A stretch of 64,000 bases of DNA from Bemisia tabaci. Its lineage: Eukaryota > Arthropoda > Insecta > Hemiptera > Aleyrodidae. This document shows, piece after piece, positions 6,376 to 32,814 of this stretch. The stretch spans positions 47,457,440 to 47,521,439 of the forward strand of contig NC_092800.1 of NCBI RefSeq assembly GCF_918797505.1. Direction: 5' to 3'. Made by a program: the position numbers and the translations under genes. The notes under the pieces are model-generated. The model made no database searches, was not told the origin of the DNA, and saw only the letters and a program-made list of their open reading frames with translations. Each line of letters opens with the position of its first letter. The stretch's first letter is position 1.

Positions 6376-6548
6376 AGAAGTAAAATCAGGACTATTAATG
6401 TCGCGGCCCCAGCCAGAGAGAGAACTCGGAGGACCAGGCCTATCCACCGAAGGGATTGTGGGCCTTCTCAGAGTCGCGATGACGTCGCGAGACAGTCACA
6501 TGCGGGTTTCATCAGCGAGCGCCAGGGAGAAAAGAGAGAGAGGAAAAA

Positions 6549-8400: not shown

Positions 8401-8665
8401 ATGGAATTCAGCGGAACTTATTGCTCCCGGGATCATCACTGTGATTGGCTTTCTAATGATTATTAATCTTGTTCGTCACTGTGATTGGATTTCTAATGAT
8501 TATTATTTTGTAGGTGAAACCGAACAAGACCCAAAAAATATAAATTTTGCAAAACCAAACTTGAAAAATCGATTGTTGTACCATTTTAATCATCTACCTA
8601 AAGTTATCGTAACAGAAAAGAATATTTGTAAATAGAAATAAACTTGAGGGTGCTCGAAACTTGAT

Positions 8666-8681
8666 GGCCGTAACAAGGGCC
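8666..8681 (-). promoter_or_regulatory. Degenerate histone 3' stem-loop
   Basis: Read on the minus strand: AAAACGGCCCTTGTTACGGC followed by CATCA. This is the histone 3' processing hairpin with one mismatch in the six-pair stem. The bases upstream (ctccatctcttcaccctcta) resemble the 3' leader of the unit at 17.3 kb. There is no histone coding sequence upstream. Confidence 0.6.
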
Positions 8682-8749
8682 GTTTTAGAGGGTGAAGAGA
8701 TGGAGCAGGTCTGAGCGGTGCTAGAACAAGCGGGACCGCTAGAGCGAGC

Positions 8750-8905
8750 TCATCTCACCTGTGATTCCGCGCCCGTACGTCACACGGGACGGGACTCACG
8801 TCACCACGCAGCACGCAGCGGACATCATGCAGCCGGCCGGCTTCCCCTTTCCAACGGCTCTTCTTAGAGCCACCACATCTCGAGCACCTCTCATGGCTTA
8901 TTAGT
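8750..8905 (+). pseudogene. Histone 3' region without coding sequence
   Basis: From gcgcccgtacgtcacacggg to ctctcatggctta the plus strand matches the minus strand of 22.60-22.72 kb. It ends in an intact stem-loop (8856-8871), but no histone codons precede it. It is a member of the 'empty histone unit' family. It lies back-to-back with the minus-strand stem-loop at 8666, so two histone 3' ends meet with no gene bodies between them. Confidence 0.6.
8856..8871 (+). promoter_or_regulatory. Histone 3' stem-loop, intact
   Basis: GGCTCT-TCTT-AGAGCC in the context CAAC(stem-loop)ACCACA. This is a six-pair stem, four-base loop structure of the SLBP-bound histone mRNA type. Confidence 0.85.
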
Positions 8906-13281: not shown

Positions 13282-13447
13282 CCGGGACAGCGCGAACGCA
13301 GTCCCGACTCCCAAAAATTACGCGCCCGACGTATCTACACATTTGAGATACTCGCAGGGGTCAGCCCGACCGGAGCGCAGCGGAAGGGCCTCGCCCTGGG
13401 GGAGTCGCCTTCTTGATCACGGTAACCCCCACGCTACGCTAATATTA
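13282..13447 (-). ncRNA. U1: U1 snRNA-like gene (variant or pseudogene)
   Basis: Read on the minus strand, the segment follows U1 snRNA almost end to end. Stem-loop I has ACCGTGATCAAGAAGGCG. Stem-loop II has AGGGCGAGGCCC followed by CTGCGCTCCGG. Next come GCTGACCCCTGCGA, the Sm site GTAATTTTTGGG, and the final hairpin GGGACTGCGTTCGCGCTGTC. The length of about 166 nt fits U1 (about 164). Oddities: the 5' end, which should read ATACTTACCTG to pair with 5' splice sites, is instead AATATTAGCGTAG. The U1-70K loop has A for C (ATCAAGAAG), and the U1A loop reads CTGCGCTCC rather than TTGCACTCC. Either a divergent U1 paralogue with new 5' splice-site preference or a decaying copy; a pseudogene is the safer reading. 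Confidence 0.85.
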
Positions 13448-15000: not shown

Positions 15001-15006
15001 GTTGGT

Positions 15007-15022
15007 GGCTCTAAGAAGAGCC
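15007..15022 (-). promoter_or_regulatory. Histone 3' stem-loop, intact
   Basis: Minus strand: TTCAAC-GGCTCT-TCTT-AGAGCC-ACCAA. Perfect six-pair stem. Confidence 0.85.
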
Positions 15023-15135
15023 GTTGAAAAGGGCAAGCCGGCCGGCTGCGAGAGGTCCGCTGGATGGTGATGTGGTCCGTGTGGTTGACGGGAGCGGAGT
15101 GACCAGGGCAAGATCCATCCATATAGGTCAGTCAT
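15007..15135 (-). pseudogene. 'Empty' histone unit: TATA and stem-loop, no coding region
   Basis: On the minus strand a TATA-like motif (cctatatgg, 15119-15127) lies only about 100 bp upstream of an intact stem-loop. The intervening DNA (gatcttgccctggtcactcc ... gcagccggccggcttgccct) has no ATG-initiated histone reading frame. The 3' part matches units at 8.8, 22.6 and 26.3 kb. Upstream lies an inverted duplication that brings a second copy of the TATA segment in opposite orientation (15689-15725). Confidence 0.55.
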
Positions 15136-15725
15136 TGCGCAGATTTCCCCGCTCGGGGTAAGCCCCTTTCCATTGGCTCGTGACGTCAGCATTACTGCCG
15201 CGAAAACCAGAAAAGTCGGAAACAATGCTTTTCTTATGGGAGAGAGCAAATTTTTCTTAATGAATCATTTAAATTTTTTACTTTTAAATCCTTTGAAACT
15301 TTCTGTGTGTCGAAAAGAACGTTTAGACATTAGCATTCAGGGTTTCGATTTTGCCGAATTTGTGTTCTTTCATTTTTACAGTTTACTCTGCATCAGCCAT
15401 TTTTACACGCGAATCTATACCACTAGATGGCTTGTTACATCGCTGACTTCAAAAATCATTTAAAAATATAAGAACGCAAATTCAGCTGAATTAAAACCCT
15501 TGACGCTAATTTCTAAACGTTCCTTTCGACACTCAGAAAGCTTCAAAGAATTTAAAAGTAAGAAATTTAAATGATTCATTAAGAAAAATTTGTCCTCTCC
15601 CATAAGAAAAGCATTGTTTCCGACATTTCTGGTTTTCGCGGCAGTAATGCTGACGTCATGCGCAGAAGATTCTCATTTGGGTTTCGGGAATGACTGACCT
15701 ATATGGATGGATCTTGGACCAGGGA
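15101..15725. repeat. Inverted duplication around the histone unit
   Basis: The main arms are 15181-15385 and 15455-15659, both starting at TGACGTCAGCATTACTGCCG. Outside them, ccatccatataggtcagtca (15115-) pairs with its complement at 15689-15715, with a diverged spacer between. The TGACGTCA at each outer boundary is a CRE-type palindrome. The structure could be a MITE inserted in an already inverted promoter, or one large fold-back. Confidence 0.75.
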
Positions 15726-15729
15726 CGGT

Positions 15730-15845
15730 GAGGTCACGGCATATGAAGCCGTGGTTGAGATTGCGTCGGCCAATCAGGAGCGAGCATGGGCTGCGTCGCC
15801 AGAGGTGTGCGGTGATTGGCCGCCACAAGTTGCACTCAGAAATTT
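15730..15845 (-). promoter_or_regulatory. Histone-type promoter with two CCAAT boxes
   Basis: Minus strand: ggcggCCAATcacc and gattGGCCGACGC-type motifs, the first identical to that in the unit at 17.5 kb. A weak TATA candidate (ttcatatgcc) follows. Downstream on the minus strand comes the inverted duplication, not a gene. Confidence 0.45.
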
Positions 15846-16101
15846 TCTACTGATAAGTGAAACTTTCAAGGGCGGAGGCATTATTTGATCGTTTTGACTT
15901 TTTCAGCACGAGCAAATTTTGTCTCCTTAGAGTTTTTGCAGGCCCATAAAAATTATAGATTTAAGATTTATTCAAAAATTCACTTATTCGAATTTACGTC
16001 GCCTAGATATCAGATCGGGCTTTGGAATTCACGTGCATTGCCGAGGTGCGGACTTATACATAAGGCCCCTGTAGCGGCGCGGGGTTGCTCTGCGGTTTGG
16101 T

Positions 16102-16117
16102 GGCCCTAAAAAGGGCC
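16102..16117 (-). promoter_or_regulatory. Histone 3' stem-loop of the H3 copy
   Basis: Minus strand: AAAC-GGCCCT-TTTT-AGGGCC-ACCAAACC, 33 bp after the H3 stop codon. A perfect stem, and the usual distance for histone mRNAs. Confidence 0.9.
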
Positions 16118-16123
16118 GTTTCA

Positions 16124-16564
<441 letters not shown>

Positions 16565-16638
16565 TCACTGTGCGAGTGCGAGCGATGACTAAGACTGAAT
16601 CAACAAAATGATAGCGCATGCATGGAGGGTGCTCCGAG

Positions 16639-17320: not shown

Positions 17321-17330
17321 GTGATGTGGT

Positions 17331-17346
17331 GGCCCTGAAAAGGGCC
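17331..17346 (-). promoter_or_regulatory. Histone 3' stem-loop, intact
   Basis: Minus strand: TAAAAC-GGCCCT-TTTC-AGGGCC-ACCACA, the canonical sequence. Confidence 0.9.
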
Positions 17347-17565
17347 GTTTTAGGTGGTGATGAGAGACAGGATGGATGGCGTCTGGAGCGGGCTAAGACT
17401 GGAGCAGCGTGGCTAGTACTACTGGACTTGACTGACTTGAGGACTGAGCACGAGTGCCGTGGGTGGCCGGGGGCGCTGGTCTTATACCCTCGGGGAGCGA
17501 CCGTGTCGGCCGATCACGGGCGAGCGCGGGATGCGCCGCGCTGGAGAGGCGGTGATTGGCCGCCA
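17331..17565 (-). pseudogene. 'Empty' histone unit: full promoter and stem-loop, no coding region
   Basis: On the minus strand: ggcggCCAATcacc (CCAAT complement at 17555-17559), GGGTATAAGACC (TATA 17481-17486), then only about 135 bp to a perfect stem-loop. A start about 30 bp below TATA gives a predicted transcript of roughly 105-120 nt. That stretch contains no ATG at all, so it cannot encode a histone. The 3' leader (catcctgtctctcatcacca) resembles histone 3' UTR. It reads as a histone gene from which the coding region was removed cleanly, or as a genuine short stem-loop RNA gene. The missing histone (H1 or H4) cannot be told. Confidence 0.6.
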
Positions 17566-18175: not shown

Positions 18176-18254
18176 CCCAAGCTTGGTACCTTGTGGTCAT
18201 TCGTTTGTCGTTTCGCTCTCTCGACACGCAGCAGATCTAAACGCTCAATTCATC

Positions 18255-18748
<494 letters not shown>

Positions 18749-20560: not shown

Positions 20561-20616
20561 CCCGAGCCGAGCTAGCACAGTCATTCGTTTGCAGATGGAC
20601 CGAACAGAGTGACGCA

Positions 20617-20988
20617 ATTGCACCGAAAGCAAGCGGTAAGGCAGTGAAGAATGCCGGCAAGGCCCAGAAGAACATTACCTAGGGTGACGAAAAGAAGAAG
20701 CGTAGGAGGTAGGAATCCTACGCCATCTACTTATACAAAGATTTGAAGCTAGTTCACCCCGACACCGGAGTTTCCTCCAAGGCTATGTCTATCATGAACT
20801 CCTTCGTCAACGACATCTTCGAACGTATCGCCGCCGAGGCTAGCCGTCTCTCCCACTACAACAAAAGATCCACCATCACCACCCGGGAAATCCAGACCGC
20901 TGTCAGGCTCCTCCTCCCCGGAAAATTGGCCAAGCACGCCGTCTCGGAAGGAACCAAGGCCGTCACCAAGTACACCAGCTCGAAGTAG
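20617..20988 (+). pseudogene. H2B: Histone H2B with lost start and two in-frame TAG codons
   Basis: Core histone partner of H2A. A single frame of 124 codons encodes APKASGKAVKNAGKAQKNIT, then stop, GDEKKKRRR, stop, [20 protein letters not shown] ... to [11 protein letters not shown]. Lesions: the initiator is ATT (20617-20619) instead of ATG. Two conserved Lys codons are TAG (20680-20682 and 20710-20712), each one base from AAG. There is no indel. Replacements such as YKDLKLVHP for the usual YKVLKQVHP and LLPGKLAKH for LLPGELAKH add to the picture of mutation without selection. TATA, leader and stem-loop remain perfect. From the first internal ATG (20779) only the histone-fold core could be made. 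Substitutions rather than indels argue for real decay, not assembly error. Confidence 0.92.
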
Positions 20989-21021
20989 ATTATCTGTTCA
21001 TCCGGCTCCACACTTTAGAAC

Positions 21022-21037
21022 GGCCCTTTTCAGGGCC
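21022..21037 (+). promoter_or_regulatory. Histone 3' stem-loop of H2B
   Basis: TTTAGAAC-GGCCCT-TTTC-AGGGCC-ACCAAA, 33 bp after the H2B stop. Confidence 0.9.
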
Positions 21038-21659: not shown

Positions 21660-22610
21660 TTAGCATTAGCATGATTAGCATCATTAGTCAAAGGAATGAC
21701 TTAATCTCGTGCCATCTCAAAGTTCAAAGCTAGGCCCGACTGAATAGGGAAGAATTGAAACACAAGTTGAGCCGTGAGCAAGCAGTTGCGTACGTTGGCG
21801 CGAGAGTGCGCGGCGAGCGGGAATCCCATATACCACTGCACTGATACAAAAAATTACATGGAGAAAGGAAGTTTGAACTCACATCGGATGCTTAAAACTT
21901 GGATTTTTTCAGCGAATTCGTCACGATTATATTTCAAGAATAACTGGATAAAAATTTGCAATAAGGAACCACAATCTCTGTCTCTTCCACGAGAGCACCT
22001 TCCTGCACAGGGTAACCGATGATTTACATGTTGTTTCAAAAATGTTTCCTTCGTGCAAAATGTGGTCCGATTATAGCTGAAATCGCTTATTATCTCGATT
22101 CTCCAGCTACTCCACACGTACGCGCCTCATCAGTTGAACCCCTTAATCGAAATGGTGAGCAGGTGTGCTCCAAAACGCACATTTGCCTCGAATGGGCACT
22201 ACATGTAGATGTACCATAATAATAACTATTAATGGAGATGATTCTTCCTCGTGATACTGGCGGAAGAAGGATCGGGTAAGTCAGGTGAGTTTGGCTGAAA
22301 AATTTACAGTGTTTACTTCTGGACTAGGGATTGCTGGATTTCTTTCTTTTCTGGGATTCATAAGTAAACGTTGTTTAGTGGTTATTTTTGGTGTTTTAAT
22401 TTTAGATTGTAATTACATTAATAATCTTGTATTCTTTATAATCAGTTTATTTTTATTAATAAATATTATTTTTGTTACGAGAAATTTCCGTAGACGTTCA
22501 AAATCGTATAACAATGGATTTATCAAGTTTGGTTTGGTAACATTTGTATTTTTTAGGTCTGACCGATTTTTATGTTAATACGGACTAAGCCATGAGAGGT
22601 GCTCATCGTT
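21660..22610. other. AT-rich non-coding stretch
   Basis: Contains one half-copy of the TTGCGTACGT repeat. A 97-codon hydrophobic frame (22285-22578) has no recognised family and sits in very AT-rich DNA; it is not accepted as a gene. Confidence 0.35.
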
Positions 22611-22614
22611 TGAT

Positions 22615-22630
22615 GGCCCTAAGAAGGGCC
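22615..22630 (-). promoter_or_regulatory. Histone 3' stem-loop
   Basis: Minus strand: CCAAC-GGCCCT-TCTT-AGGGCC-ATCAAA. Perfect stem. Confidence 0.85.
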
Positions 22631-22800
22631 GTTGGAAAGGGCGAGCCGGCCGGCTGCATGATGTCCACTGGGTTCTGTACGACGACGTGAGTCCCGTGTG
22701 ACGTACGGGCGCGGAGTGTTAAATGAGATGACCTCGCGGCTAGATATAGCCGTGGTGGCAGTGTCGAGCTCCAGCCAATGAGCTGTGGTGGTTGGCGGAG
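22615..22800 (-). pseudogene. 'Empty' histone unit: CCAAT, TATA and stem-loop, no coding region
   Basis: Minus strand: gctCATTGGctgg, then GGCTATATCTAGCC (TATA about 22745), then about 115 bp to the stem-loop. The transcribed part (gcgcccgtacgtcacacggg ... catcatgcagccggccggct) matches the plus strand at 8.77-8.86 kb and has no histone codons. The 3' end (gcacctctcatggctta) also matches the flank of the H2A copy at 26.2 kb. Confidence 0.6.
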
Positions 22801-23012
22801 TGGTGGGTTGCCACCACACCTTCACAAGAACAGGAACACGTTTCGAAACTAGGAATTTGAAATGAGAAGTGAACTCTCATATCAGGAAATCGAAGATTTT
22901 TCTTATCCTGTGTTCAAAGTTACCGTTCACAAAGATGATTTTTAAATTTCCTCTAGGAAAATTGTCCATGGACGATTCGGACGGAGTTTAACAGAAAGGA
23001 ACCAAGCCACAT

Positions 23013-23289: not shown

Positions 23290-24252
23290 CTTGATGTAGC
23301 ACAAGCGTTCGATCGAGTCTGGCATGAGAGGCTCGTCGATAAACTTTTCACCATGCTCCCATGTAACCTGTGTGTGCTCCTATCGTCCTTTCTTACTGGA
23401 AGACAGTTCAGAGTCAGATATGAAAACACAACATCAGGTTTCAGACAAATACGAGCGGGGGTTCCACAGGGCTCCTGTCTTTCCCCTCTTCTCTACTCTC
23501 TCTTTACCACAGACATCCCACAGTCTGGAAGGAGGGGGAAACTGGGAGTTTATGCCGACGATACTCCCGTGCTAGCCATGTCTAAAAGCTATACAGAGGC
23601 ACGTCATACAGCTCAGCAACACTTGAATAAAATAAATAAATGGACAATGAGAGATAAAACAAAATTAAATGCCTCAAAATCAGCTGAAGTAATTTTTACT
23701 AATCGTCCATATATTCACATCCCGCTTTCTTTAGGAGAAGATAAAATTCCACACAACTCTGTCGCCGAATATCTTGGACTTCAGCTGGATTCCAGGCTCA
23801 GGTGGGGCAACCATATTAAAAAAAAAGTAGCACAATTGCGACTGAAATTTTCCAATGTGCAGTGGCTCATCGGACGTAAGTCACGGTTATCGCTAAATAT
23901 TAAGTTGCTCCTCTACAAATCAATGTTGAGGCCTGTTTGGAGTTACGGTTGCCAATTGTGGGGTTGCGCAGCCAAGTCAAATTTAGATAAAATGGAAATC
24001 ATGCAAATGAAGATCCTGAGAAGTATTACTAAAGCAAGATGGTACGAGACGAATGTAGATATTCGCACGGACCTCAACATTGATTCAGTGGAGGACTACA
24101 TCACCAAGATGTACACTGCATACGAATTTCGTCTACACCGGCACCACAACCCTGAAGCTGTTGAGCTCTTGGAATGGGACCGATGTCGTCGAAGATTAAG
24201 ACGTCGCAAGCCCTACGAGCTTGGAATCCAGGGCTTCTCAAAATTTCCTTAA
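23262..24252 (+). mobile_element. Jockey-type non-LTR retrotransposon, reverse transcriptase (5'-truncated)
   Basis: Reverse transcriptase for target-primed retrotransposition. The frame from 23269 gives 327 residues: VRFLDVAQAFDRVWHERL (RT motif with catalytic Asp), GVPQGSCLSPLLYSLFTTDI, then YADDTPVLA (catalytic box), TKLNASKSAEVIFTN, EYLGLQLDSRLRWGNHI, and a C-terminal SMLRPVWSYGCQLWGCA segment typical of the Jockey clade, ending in GIQGFSKFP. The endonuclease and first RT motifs are missing. A 3' UTR of about 280 bp leads to an A-rich tract at 24532-24554. The surviving frame is open, so the insertion is not very old; it cannot move by itself. Confidence 0.9.
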
Positions 24253-25890: not shown

Positions 25891-26290
25891 TGCGCCAGGG
25901 TGGCCAAATTTCATGAAAAATAAAATCTTAAAATTTCACGGGAAATATTTCATGTAATCTCAGATATTTATGAAACATATTGAAAAATACAAGTTCCTTT
26001 TTATGTTTCGAAGGTTGTAAAAATCGTTACTCTCCTTTTACTTTCGGGTGCTTGAATGCGTGTTGCATACTCGGGCCCCTGAAAAATACGAATTATCTCA
26101 CACTGCCTCGTGAAATTTCATGAAAGATTTCACTGAAATTTCCAATTTTTGATTTCCTTCTTACGCTTCATGCCACTCTGTCCGTTACCATAAGATCCTA
26201 ACGTGGACGTGTTTCCACTCCCTGCTGCACTGGGTGGCATGTACGGACGGATAAGCCATGAGAAGTGCCATGAGGGCAAACCGGCCGGCT
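25891..26290. other. Non-coding stretch
   Basis: AT-rich, with a short 'aaatttcatgaa'-type repeat around 26110-26140. The last 60 bp carry the H2A-type 3' flank (gataagccatgagaagtgcc). Confidence 0.4.
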
Positions 26291-26299
26291 CCATGACGC

Positions 26300-26648
26300 G
26301 GCTTGGATGTTGGGCAGGACACCTCCTTGGGCGATGGTGACACCAGAGAGAAGCTTGTTCAATTCCTCACCGTTACGGATGGCAAGTTGTAAGTGACGGG
26401 GGATGATCCTCGTTTTCTTGTTGTCACGAGCGGCATTTCCAGTCAACTCAAGGACTTCAGCGGCCAAGTATTCCATGACAGCGGGAAGATAGACGGGAGC
26501 TCCAGCAACAACTGGCTCGGCATTGTTTCCTTTGCGGAGAAGTCGGTGGATACGTCCTACTGGAAATTGGATGGAGCCCAGCACGGGGTGAGCGGGTCTT
26601 GGACTTGCCCTTGGCCTTGGTCTTTCCACTTTTACCTCTTCCAGACCT
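26300..26648 (-). pseudogene. H2A: Histone H2A, second copy, disabled and truncated
   Basis: Minus strand. [20 protein letters not shown] follows an AGG where ATG should be (26646-26648). A small insertion in the RAGLQFPVG segment shifts frame. H2A continues as [20 protein letters not shown] ... [20 protein letters not shown] and then stops resembling H2A: the [11 protein letters not shown] tail is replaced by 3'-flank sequence (gcgtcatggagccggccgg) and the stem-loop is gone (gccctcatggcacttctcat). The upstream leader matches the 18.2-kb H2A, but the CCAAT/TATA block is deleted (ctcccaaaggcaatacctaa). It is clearly a dead, inverted duplicate. Confidence 0.9.
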
Positions 26649-27070
26649 GTTGAGTTGTGCGTTAAGGTCTGCTGCGTGTTGGTAGAACGAAACGAATGAC
26701 CACCGGAGCTCAAGCTTAGGTATTGCCTTTGGGAGGAGCGCTGCTAGCAACTTCGATCGTGTGAGGGGTCGCCACAGCAGGCGCGTCACACAGGTCCTTG
26801 TTCCTCGACGTTTCAACGAGCACAGCTGCCCGCGTCCTCATAACTTATTCCATTCATTTGGACAGAGGTTTTGCGCACATTACGGAATAAAATCAGGACA
26901 AAAATGACACGATGAATGAAGCATGGTGAATGAACTGAAATTGAAGCCGACCTACTTGCCGTATTCGTGCTTGCTGAGTATAGTCCTACGGTAGGGTGAG
27001 TCAATGAGTCATTGACTAGTGAGGTCATCTATACAGTTAAATCCGCACAATTCTCCCCTAGCATTTAAAT
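26300..27070. repeat. Segmental inverted duplication, copy B
   Basis: Inverse copy of about 17800-18640, more diverged, including the second H2A pseudogene and about 400 bp upstream of it. Confidence 0.85.
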
Positions 27071-29929: not shown

Positions 29930-31820
29930 AGGATAAAAAGGGAGGAATATTACCTATACAGGATAGTCCTGGAAAAACGGGATGTACCTATATTAATAAA
30001 CCGGGATAACAGGACGAATATCGATCTTTATATATCGATATTCGATATATCGTTTGATTTAAAGAAGTATTGACTGGGATAAAAGGTGATTTACGGGATT
30101 TCTTCAAAGTGACCGGGATAATATGCAGTAATTTTACCTATATACAGTATAGTCATGGATAAAACTGGATGTAACTATATTAAGAAACCGGGATAACAGG
30201 AAGGATATCGATCTTTGTGTATCGATTTTCGATACATCGTTTGTTCTAAAGCAGTATTGACTGGGATAAAACGGGATTTCATCATAATAACCGGGATAAA
30301 AGGGAGGGATTTTACCTATACAGGATAGTCATGGATAAAACGGGATGTAACTATATCAAGAAACCGGGATAACAGGAAGGATATCGATCTTTATATATCG
30401 ATATTTGATATATCGTTTGATTTAAAGAAGTATTGACTGGGATAAAAGGTGATTTACGGGATTTCTTCAAAGTGACCGGGATAATATGCAGTAATTTTAC
30501 CTATATACAGTATAGTCATGGATAAAACTGGATGTAACTATATTAAGAAACCGGGATAACAGGAAGGATATCGATCTTTATATATCGATATTCGATATAT
30601 CGTTTGATTTAAAGGAGTATTGACTGGGATAAAACGGGATTTCTTCATAATAACCGGGATAAAAGGGAGGGATTTTACCTATACAGGATAGTCATGGATA
30701 AAACGGGATGTACCTATATTAATAAACCGGGATAACAGGACGAATATCGATCTTTATATATCGATATTCGATATATCGTTTGATTTAAAGGAGTATTGAC
30801 TGGGATAAAAGGTGATTTACGGGATTTCTTCAAAGTGACCGGGATATTATGCAGTAATTTTACCTATATACAGTATAGCCATGGATAAAACTGGATGTAA
30901 CTATGTTAAGAAACCGGGATAAGAGGACGGATATCGATCTTCGATACATCGTTTGTTCTAAAGCAGTATTGACTGAGATAAAACTGGATTTCTTCATAAT
31001 AACCGGGATAAAAGGGAGGGATTTTACCTATACAGGATAGTCATGGATAAAGCGGGATGTAACTATATTAAGAAACCGGGATAACAGGAAGGATATCCAT
31101 CTTTATATGTCGATATTCGATATATTGTTAATCGTTATCGTTATCGTTAAAGGAATTAATGATAGTTAGACACGTATAAAAATGGGAGGGATTTCTTCTA
31201 ATTAACCAGGATAAAAGGGAGAAACATTACCTACACAGGATAGTCCTGGAAAAACGGGATGTGCCTATATTAATAAACCGGGATAACAGGACGAATATCG
31301 ATCTTTGTGTATCGATCTTCGATACATCGTTTGTTCTAAAACAGTATTGACTGAGATAAAACGGGATTTTTTCATAATAACCGGGATAAAAGGGAGGGAT
31401 TTTACCTATACAGGATAGTCATGGATATAGCGGGATGTAACTATATTAAGAAACCGGGATAACAGGAAGGATATCGATCTTTGTGTATCGATCTTCGATA
31501 CATCGTCTGTTCTAAAGCAGTATTGACTGGGATAAAACGGGATTTCTTCATAATAACCGGGATAAAAGGGAGGGATTTTACCTATACAGGATAGTCATGG
31601 ATAAAACGGGATGTAACTATATCAAGAAACCGGGATAACAGGAAGGATATCGATCTTTATATATCGATATTCGATATATCGTTTGATTTAAAGGAGTATT
31701 GACTGGGATAAAAGGTGATTTACGGGATTTCTTCAAAGTGACCGGGATAATATGCAGTAATTTTACCTATATACAGTATAGTCATGGATAAAACTGGATG
31801 TAACTATGTTAAGAAACCGG
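29930..31820. repeat. About 180-bp tandem repeats with 'ccgggataa' motif
   Basis: Roughly ten units each containing aaaccgggataacaggaagg, atcgatctttatatatcgat, tattgactgggataaaa, ttacctatacaggatagtca and ggataaaacgggatgtaact. Two subtypes partly alternate: 'ggtgatttacgggatttctt' and 'aaacgggatttcttcataat'. Confidence 0.9.
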
Positions 31821-31823
31821 GAT

Positions 31824-32170
31824 AAAACACATCAAATGCATCATGAAACACAGCAAACACATCAAACACATCATGAAACACTTCAAACACAACAAACACA
31901 TCATGAAACACAGCAAACACATCATGAAACACAGCAAACACATCATGAAACACAGCAAACACATCATGAAACACAGCAAACACATCATGAAACACTCCAA
32001 CACATCATGAAACACAATCAAACACATCAAACACATCACGAAACACAGCAAACAGATCATGAAACACAATCAAACACATCAAACACAACAAACACATCAT
32101 GAAACACAATCAAACACAACAAACACATCATGAAACACAATCAAACAAATCAAATACATCAAACTGATAA
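31824..32170. repeat. 21-bp minisatellite AAACACATCATGAAACACAGC
   Basis: Near-perfect repeats of 18-30 bp built from 'aaacacatca' and 'tgaaacacagc'. The unit keeps frames open on both strands; these are not genes. Confidence 0.9.
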
Positions 32171-32195
32171 TCGCATGTATCGATAATCGCATGTT

Positions 32196-32534
32196 TCATT
32201 GAACCCTTCAGGAATGCCAAGTCAAAATTTAAAGTTAAAAGAAGGAGCAGTGGTTATGTTACTACGCAACATTTGTATCGAGGATGGATTGTGCAATGGG
32301 ACAAGATTAATTGTCTTAAAAATAAACAAATGCATTTTGCATTGCTCAGTTTTAAAAGGAGAAAATAAAGGAAAAATAGTTGCACTACCAAAAATTACAC
32401 TTAACACAAAAGAAGAAACAAACCTACCTTTTGTTTTGAATAGGAAACAATTCCCCGTTAGATTAGCATTTGCTATGACTATTAGTAAAAGCCAAGGGCA
32501 ATCGTTTGACAGAGTGGGAATTTTTATAGATAAA
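32196..32534 (+). pseudogene. Helitron Pif1-type helicase, C-terminal part 1
   Basis: The frame encodes LNPSGMPSQNLKLKEGAVVM, LLRNICIEDGLCNGTRLIVL, NRKQFPVRLAFAMTISKSQG and QSFDRVGIFIDK. This is the SF1B helicase C-terminal region of Helitron proteins, including the conserved FPVR-AFAMTI-K(S/A)QGQ(S/T)F-RVG motif VI area. The frame is cut at 32534 by the inserted element, which adds a read-through tail of unrelated codons to 32582. No N-terminal helicase motifs (Walker A/B) are upstream; tandem repeats lie there instead. Confidence 0.9.
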
Positions 32535-32814
32535 CTAGAGGGCTCCGCCCCCTGGCCGCTCCGCGGCCCAACCCCCTCGTAGATTCTGTCAATTCATGAT
32601 GAAAATATCACATAATTTTTTTTTAATTCCCATTTTTCTTGTAATTTTTATTGATACTGCTGAAGTTTTGTTAGATACTTATTCATTCAAAACATCATCA
32701 TCAATTTAGCTACAAACTTACTTCAATTAAGTTTGGAATTTTAAGATAAGGTGAATAATCTGTTTGAAACGGTTTATATGGGATAAAACATGATGGATGG
32801 AAAGTAAACATGAT

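Follow-up and report, generated by a model that had tools for sequence, protein, structure and literature searches.

Probable UTR-only histone pseudogenes in a decaying histone cluster of the whitefly Bemisia tabaci

How do histone control regions come to stand in a genome with no histone gene between them? In a 64,000-nt stretch of Bemisia tabaci DNA (contig NC_092800.1, positions 47,457,440 to 47,521,439; hereafter the window), several short units end in a histone-type 3′ stem-loop, and three of them begin with a promoter, while the coding region is missing. Tandem histone genes give rise to orphons and pseudogenes, copies that are dispersed and in decay, and a first-pass annotation of the window weighed recurrent deletion of the coding region against the possibility that the units are genuine stem-loop RNAs of S phase. 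Their arrangement, their kinship and their divergence bear on both accounts, and they point to a third, in which a coding-less copy arose once or twice and was then duplicated as such.

The unit at 17.3 kb (U17; 17327..17565, minus strand) comprises a promoter, a 109-nt leader and a stem-loop followed by ACCA. Its promoter, read on the minus strand, holds a CCAAT box at 17559-17555, a second box, GATCGGC, at 17515-17509 and TATAA at 17486-17482, with transcription predicted to start at 17455 (starts in this and the two other promoter-bearing units were predicted from TATA spacing and initiator-like letters). The stem-loop, GGCCCTTTTCAGGGCC, occupies 17346-17331 and is perfect, and GAGCA sits 12 nt past it. 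ATG is absent from the minus strand across 17331-17565, and the CCAAT box, TATA box and perfect stem-loop that had been described at 17.3 kb without an ATG were all located there.

Similar minus-strand units had been reported at 15.0 and 22.6 kb, and both follow the plan of the 17.3-kb unit, each with a departure from it. The 15.0-kb unit (U15; 15003..15860) is split at its predicted start (15100) by a 608-nt foldback MITE (15109-15716) with 203-nt arms that are 89% complementary. The 8-nt target duplication of the element, GACCAGGG, lies at 15101-15108 and 15717-15724, so that element and duplications together cover 15101..15724; we take a duplication of this length to be hAT-like. On the promoter side (15717-15850) are found CCAAT (15815-15819), ATTGG (15770-15774) and a TATA-like CATATG (15740-15745), all on the minus strand, and on the other side a 78-nt leader and a stem-loop at 15007-15022. 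Further repetitive and mobile-element-like sequences occur elsewhere in the window. A reverse transcriptase frame at 23353-24252, with relatives in PF00078 and jockey-like by the names of its weaker matches, has a Bemisia tabaci protein as its closest named relative (93% identity over 77% of the length) and a top match overall of 84% over 100%; an inverted repeat at 24762-25241/25342-25821 has 480-nt arms that are 96% complementary and 100 nt apart; and at 31806-32582 a repetitive frame with THHETQQ repeats is followed by a 122-aa frame that we presume to resemble the end of a PIF1-type helicase, possibly from a Helitron.

At 22.6 kb (U22; 22611..22830) a promoter with ATTGG at 22775-22779 and TATAT at 22744-22748 precedes a predicted start at 22717, an 87-nt leader and a stem-loop at 22615-22630, all on the minus strand. 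Its departure from the plan is that the predicted RNA does contain an ATG (22659-22657, minus strand), within the motif CATCATG of the leader. A short peptide beginning at this ATG was considered and rejected: by eye, its frame crosses the stem-loop and meets no stop before ATCA, and the predicted RNAs of the 15.0- and 17.3-kb units have no ATG.

Two 3′ ends described as standing alone at 8.66 and 8.86 kb both exist, but the latter (U8p; 8744..8900, plus strand; stem-loop at 8856-8871) also carries the body of the 22.6-kb unit. Across body and 3′ end, 152 sites can be aligned between the two, starting on the U22 side at 22737, below the TATA box; the U8p body has an ATG at 8827, and no promoter match was found at 8.86 kb. 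The 8.66-kb copy (U8m; 8644..8700, minus strand) is a degenerate histone 3′ end alone, with one of the six pairs of its stem-loop (8681-8666) broken, a spacer of 10 between stem-loop and GAGCA, and no promoter found. It is nearest to the 3′ end of the H2A copy at 18.6 kb (82% over 51 nt) and next to that of U17 (76% over 59 nt), a likeness by which it may be a separate remnant. Within 8644-8900, the H2A-like 3′ end (minus strand) and the U22-like unit (plus strand) stand head to head, about 40 nt apart, and the gap holds no recognised promoter. A further block that comes after U22 (22444..22560, minus strand) matches 8527-8644 on the plus strand, which comes before U8m and U8p, a placement expected if the units were once in tandem.

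The 3′ ends of these units are of histone type. A stem-loop pattern allowing up to three mismatches matches the window 10 times, against an expected 1.25 ± 1.12, and none of 100 shuffles reaches that number. The matches fall at eight places (two being counted on both strands), seven of them histone-type, and one, at 6460, is probably a chance match. Perfect six-pair stems number eight in the window; the seven of histone type are divided between four coding-less units (8.86, 15.0, 17.3 and 22.6 kb) and three pseudogenes (H3, H2A and H2B). The Rfam Histone3 model (RF00032) finds seven places at E values up to 0.0061, although its curated cut-off of 34 bits is reached by the H2A stem-loop alone (37.8 bits): the coding-less units score 24.3-29.9 bits, and the stem-loops of the H2B and H3 pseudogenes also stay below the cut-off. 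All eight ends that possess a stem-loop have GAGCA 10-12 nt downstream of it. The coding-less units thus share with replication-dependent histone genes, whose 3′ ends depend on the stem-loop, SLBP and U7, a CCAAT/TATA promoter, the six-pair stem-loop, ACCA (ATCA in U22 and U8m) and the downstream element 10-12 nt away, the broken pair of U8m being a further exception; they differ from such genes in having no coding sequence and in their sub-threshold Rfam scores.

The histone coding copies of the same window are also in decay. A tblastn search of the whole window with five histone queries located four copies, all of them broken. The H3 pseudogene (16102..16609, minus strand; coding 16561-16153) keeps its start codon but has an in-frame stop and a frameshift near its end, with an intact stem-loop at 16102-16117. 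On the plus strand, an H2A pseudogene (18199..18679; coding from 18255) has a frameshift and, past its last matched residue, a TTA codon rather than a stop, and an H2B pseudogene (20583..21037; coding from 20617) has ATT at the start place and two in-frame stops; both end in intact stem-loops (18664-18679 and 21022-21037). The second H2A pseudogene (26250..26700, minus strand; coding 26645-26300) has AGG at the start place, and its coding homology stops at PNIQA, from where it continues into a 3′ end of the U22 type (profile E 0.00043) with the stem-loop missing. The two H2A copies, mutually inverted, are 80.7% alike over 808 nt, up to near the coding end, beyond which their 3′ ends differ; coding copies did, therefore, become joined to such 3′ ends at this locus. 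Perfect stem-loops in three of the four broken copies likewise mean that an intact stem-loop alone is no proof of function here. The search returned no credible match to H4 or H1 anywhere in the window and no convincing histone coding match in the coding-less units, the only hit being a chance-level one to H3 (E 2.6, 8720-8848). A U1 snRNA-like sequence is also present in the window (13282-13445, minus strand; 114 bits, above cut-off); its 5′ end, the part of U1 meant for base-pairing to the 5′ splice site, departs from the model consensus, and the sequence is possibly a U1 pseudogene.

The kinship among the units indicates how many losses of coding sequence must be assumed. Compared without their stem-loops, the bodies of U22, U15 and U8p are clearly related (z 16.4 for U22-U15, 25.4 for U22-U8p and 11.0 for U15-U8p, with none of 500 shuffles as good in any pair), while that of U17 reaches only z 2.3 against U15 (15/500 shuffles), -0.9 against U22, 0.3 against U8p and a non-significant 1.6 against U8m (46/500). 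The promoters, compared among the three units that have one (none having been found at U8m and U8p, these were left out), link U15 both to U17 (z 13.3) and to U22 (z 5.2), again with 0/500 shuffles each, and the U22-U17 likeness is weak (z 2.6, 11/500). The latter is no better than that between the U22 promoter and the H3 promoter (z 2.5, 14/500) and below that between U17 and H2B (z 3.3, 7/500), which are the two highest of 12 pairings of unit with coding promoters, the remaining ten reaching at most 1.8. A profile built from the U15, U17 and U22 promoters finds no further copy in the window at E<1. For neither the promoters nor the bodies of the units did the window yield a confident match to a coding copy.

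We consider it fairly likely, with a probability of about 0.7, that the units are UTR-only histone pseudogenes amplified within a decaying, orphon-like histone cluster of this insect. Under this interpretation of the sequence, the source would be an ancestral histone gene whose promoter bore no clear resemblance to those of the local H2A, H2B and H3 copies; a deletion running from the 5′ UTR, or from just past the start codon, to the 3′ UTR would have removed its coding region once or twice; and the coding-less remnant would then have been copied, inverted and partly fused to its neighbours as the cluster was rearranged. Since the units retain no trace of histone coding sequence, the lost coding region is something that we infer rather than see. 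The lengths of the units nevertheless agree with its loss: from predicted start to stem-loop they measure 109, 78 and 87 nt (U17, U15 and U22), about the length of two joined UTRs, as expected if the coding region alone was lost, given that in the coding pseudogenes the 5′ and 3′ UTRs sum to 91 (H2A), 67 (H2B) and 80 nt (H3) with predicted starts. Furthermore, CATCATG, which is the H2A start context at 18251, is kept in both U22 and U8p, 58 nt from the predicted U22 start, and suggests that the deletion began just past a start codon. Because neither H4 nor H1 was found in the window, our guess is that one of them was the gene lost. In their disrupted coding capacity and background-level divergence the units resemble histone pseudogenes and orphons, and with these the window shares rearranged and mutated copies that vary in histone class and orientation and that in several cases keep their 3′ elements intact. 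It differs from them in that several of its copies lack a coding region entirely and yet have a body in common, which implies that they were duplicated in that state.

The pseudogene interpretation agrees with the first-pass annotation in preferring a deletion between leader and 3′ UTR, the reading with most support here, but parts with it over recurrence. The annotation had emphasized a repeated clean loss of the coding region, which the body common to three units and the kinship of the promoters make unneeded: the four units can be explained by one deletion, or two, with later duplication, and a separate loss for every unit can be rejected on the same evidence. Independent deletions, each unit arising by its own recombination between leader and 3′ UTR, are the best of the alternatives and still unlikely. 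The U17 body, without clear kinship to those of U15, U22 and U8p, leaves a single common deletion for all units unproven and at least two events possible; U8m, closer to an H2A 3′ end than to U17, is perhaps a remnant of separate origin; and the novel 3′ junction of the second H2A copy is further evidence in favor of this view. Recurrence for each unit is nonetheless unnecessary, given one body shared by U15, U22 and U8p and a U15 promoter akin to those of both U17 and U22.

Another alternative is a functional one: the units would form a family of short S-phase RNAs, coding-less and ending in the stem-loop, that the histone 3′ processing machinery would produce and that could sequester SLBP or U7 snRNP or have a role at the histone locus body. 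The near-complete set of signals at U17, U15 and U22 (promoter, stem-loop, ACCA or ATCA, and GAGCA) and the kinship of their promoters would suit such a role, and the divergence of the units speaks against it. Body copies differ at 25 of 152 sites between U22 and U8p (0.164), 13 of 74 between U22 and U15 (0.176) and 10 of 73 between U8p and U15 (0.137); U17 and U8m, comparable in the 3′ end only, differ by 0.211 per site, and the U15 and U17 promoters by 0.306. Nearby non-coding duplicates differ by 0.171 (the block after U22), 0.114 (19.4/22.9 kb), 0.120 (H2A upstream) and 0.281 (H2A promoter to 5′ UTR), and the H2A coding copies by 0.135. By this measure of sequence change, the units show no better preservation than the non-coding duplicates that surround them.

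The stem-loop itself offers a more favorable signal. Between U22 and U8p, differences number 15/80 in the leader, 2/27 in the 27 nt before the stem-loop, 2/16 in the stem-loop and 6/29 downstream, and the two in the stem-loop form a compensatory pair, by which the U22 stem also differs from that of U15. Four of the five coding-less 3′ ends have perfect stems, and the neutral probability of at least four is 0.244, 0.073, 0.030, 0.010 and 0.0025 at 0.05, 0.08, 0.10, 0.12 and 0.15 changes per copy, on the assumption that the copies are independent. With 0.08-0.10, about half of the pairwise difference, as the relevant range, stem survival gives a borderline indication of constraint (P 0.073-0.030), computed on five ends; it omits the tail of the second H2A copy, whose stem-loop is lost and whose inclusion would weaken the result. 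The survival of four stems in five would also be expected had the cluster died recently.

Folding adds little to this signal. When the stem-loop is included, the fold of U15 is better than that of most shuffled sequences (z -2.62, 4/200), followed by U8p (-1.65), U17 (-1.24) and U22 (-0.70); without it, the leaders fold like shuffled sequences (z -1.32 for U15, +1.07 for U22, +0.11 for U17, -0.32 for U8p and -0.95 for U8m). For the three related leaders, a consensus fold has a slight advantage over column shuffles (z -1.80, 12/300), which shrinks to z -0.94 (49/300) when U17 is included; these models give the leaders no clear conserved fold. The functional alternative has, in addition, to accommodate a U15 broken by a MITE, the lack of a detected promoter at U8p and U8m, and the broken stem of the latter. 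With divergence at background level, leaders that fold much as shuffles do and all four coding histones dead, the proposal that S-phase RNAs from these units titrate SLBP finds little support; we hold it to be quite improbable, and we infer that the units yield no functional RNA. Marginally less probable still is a bolder form of the idea, in which whiteflies would possess a family with its own promoter class, producing coding-less S-phase RNAs of about 98-129 nt as SLBP/U7 snRNP decoys that tune histone mRNA output, the window holding decayed and possibly live members. An assembly artefact, with coding regions collapsed or dropped, is hardly credible even though clusters of repeated genes are easily misassembled, because the body copies are 14-18% different, their flanks differ in part and one has a MITE inside, and collapse is unlikely to produce three such copies with the same joined body.

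Literature and database searches yielded few parallels. Among the listed matches on stem-loop RNAs, orphons and whitefly or insect histones, titles and opening lines of abstracts mention no coding-less histone stem-loop units. In excerpts of two retrieved papers (PMC1872034, PMC5011920) the word orphon occurs solely in the bibliography, in entries for a mussel histone paper, and a third gives names of human histone pseudogenes (PMC10886805). Another study reports, among its top 200 SLBP clusters, one non-histone RNA (given there as PPP1R5B) whose structures resemble the histone stem-loop, and suggests that SLBP might bind more than histone mRNA (PMC6451120); the units of the window are not known to be expressed or bound in this way. 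The 27-nt motif common to U15, U22 and U8p has no exact match among the viral contigs or the genome contigs of the viral and prokaryotic collections searched, a negative of little weight since these may exclude sequence from the genome of the window itself.

Both outcomes would be informative for histone biology. Should one of the units be transcribed in S phase, it would constitute a natural coding-less substrate of SLBP and U7 snRNP, and it would permit a direct test of whether the supply of these factors limits histone mRNA. If, on the other hand, the units are relics, they would illustrate a mode of histone cluster decay in which coding regions are lost but short control regions persist and become duplicated, and in which annotation based on promoters or stem-loops can be misled.
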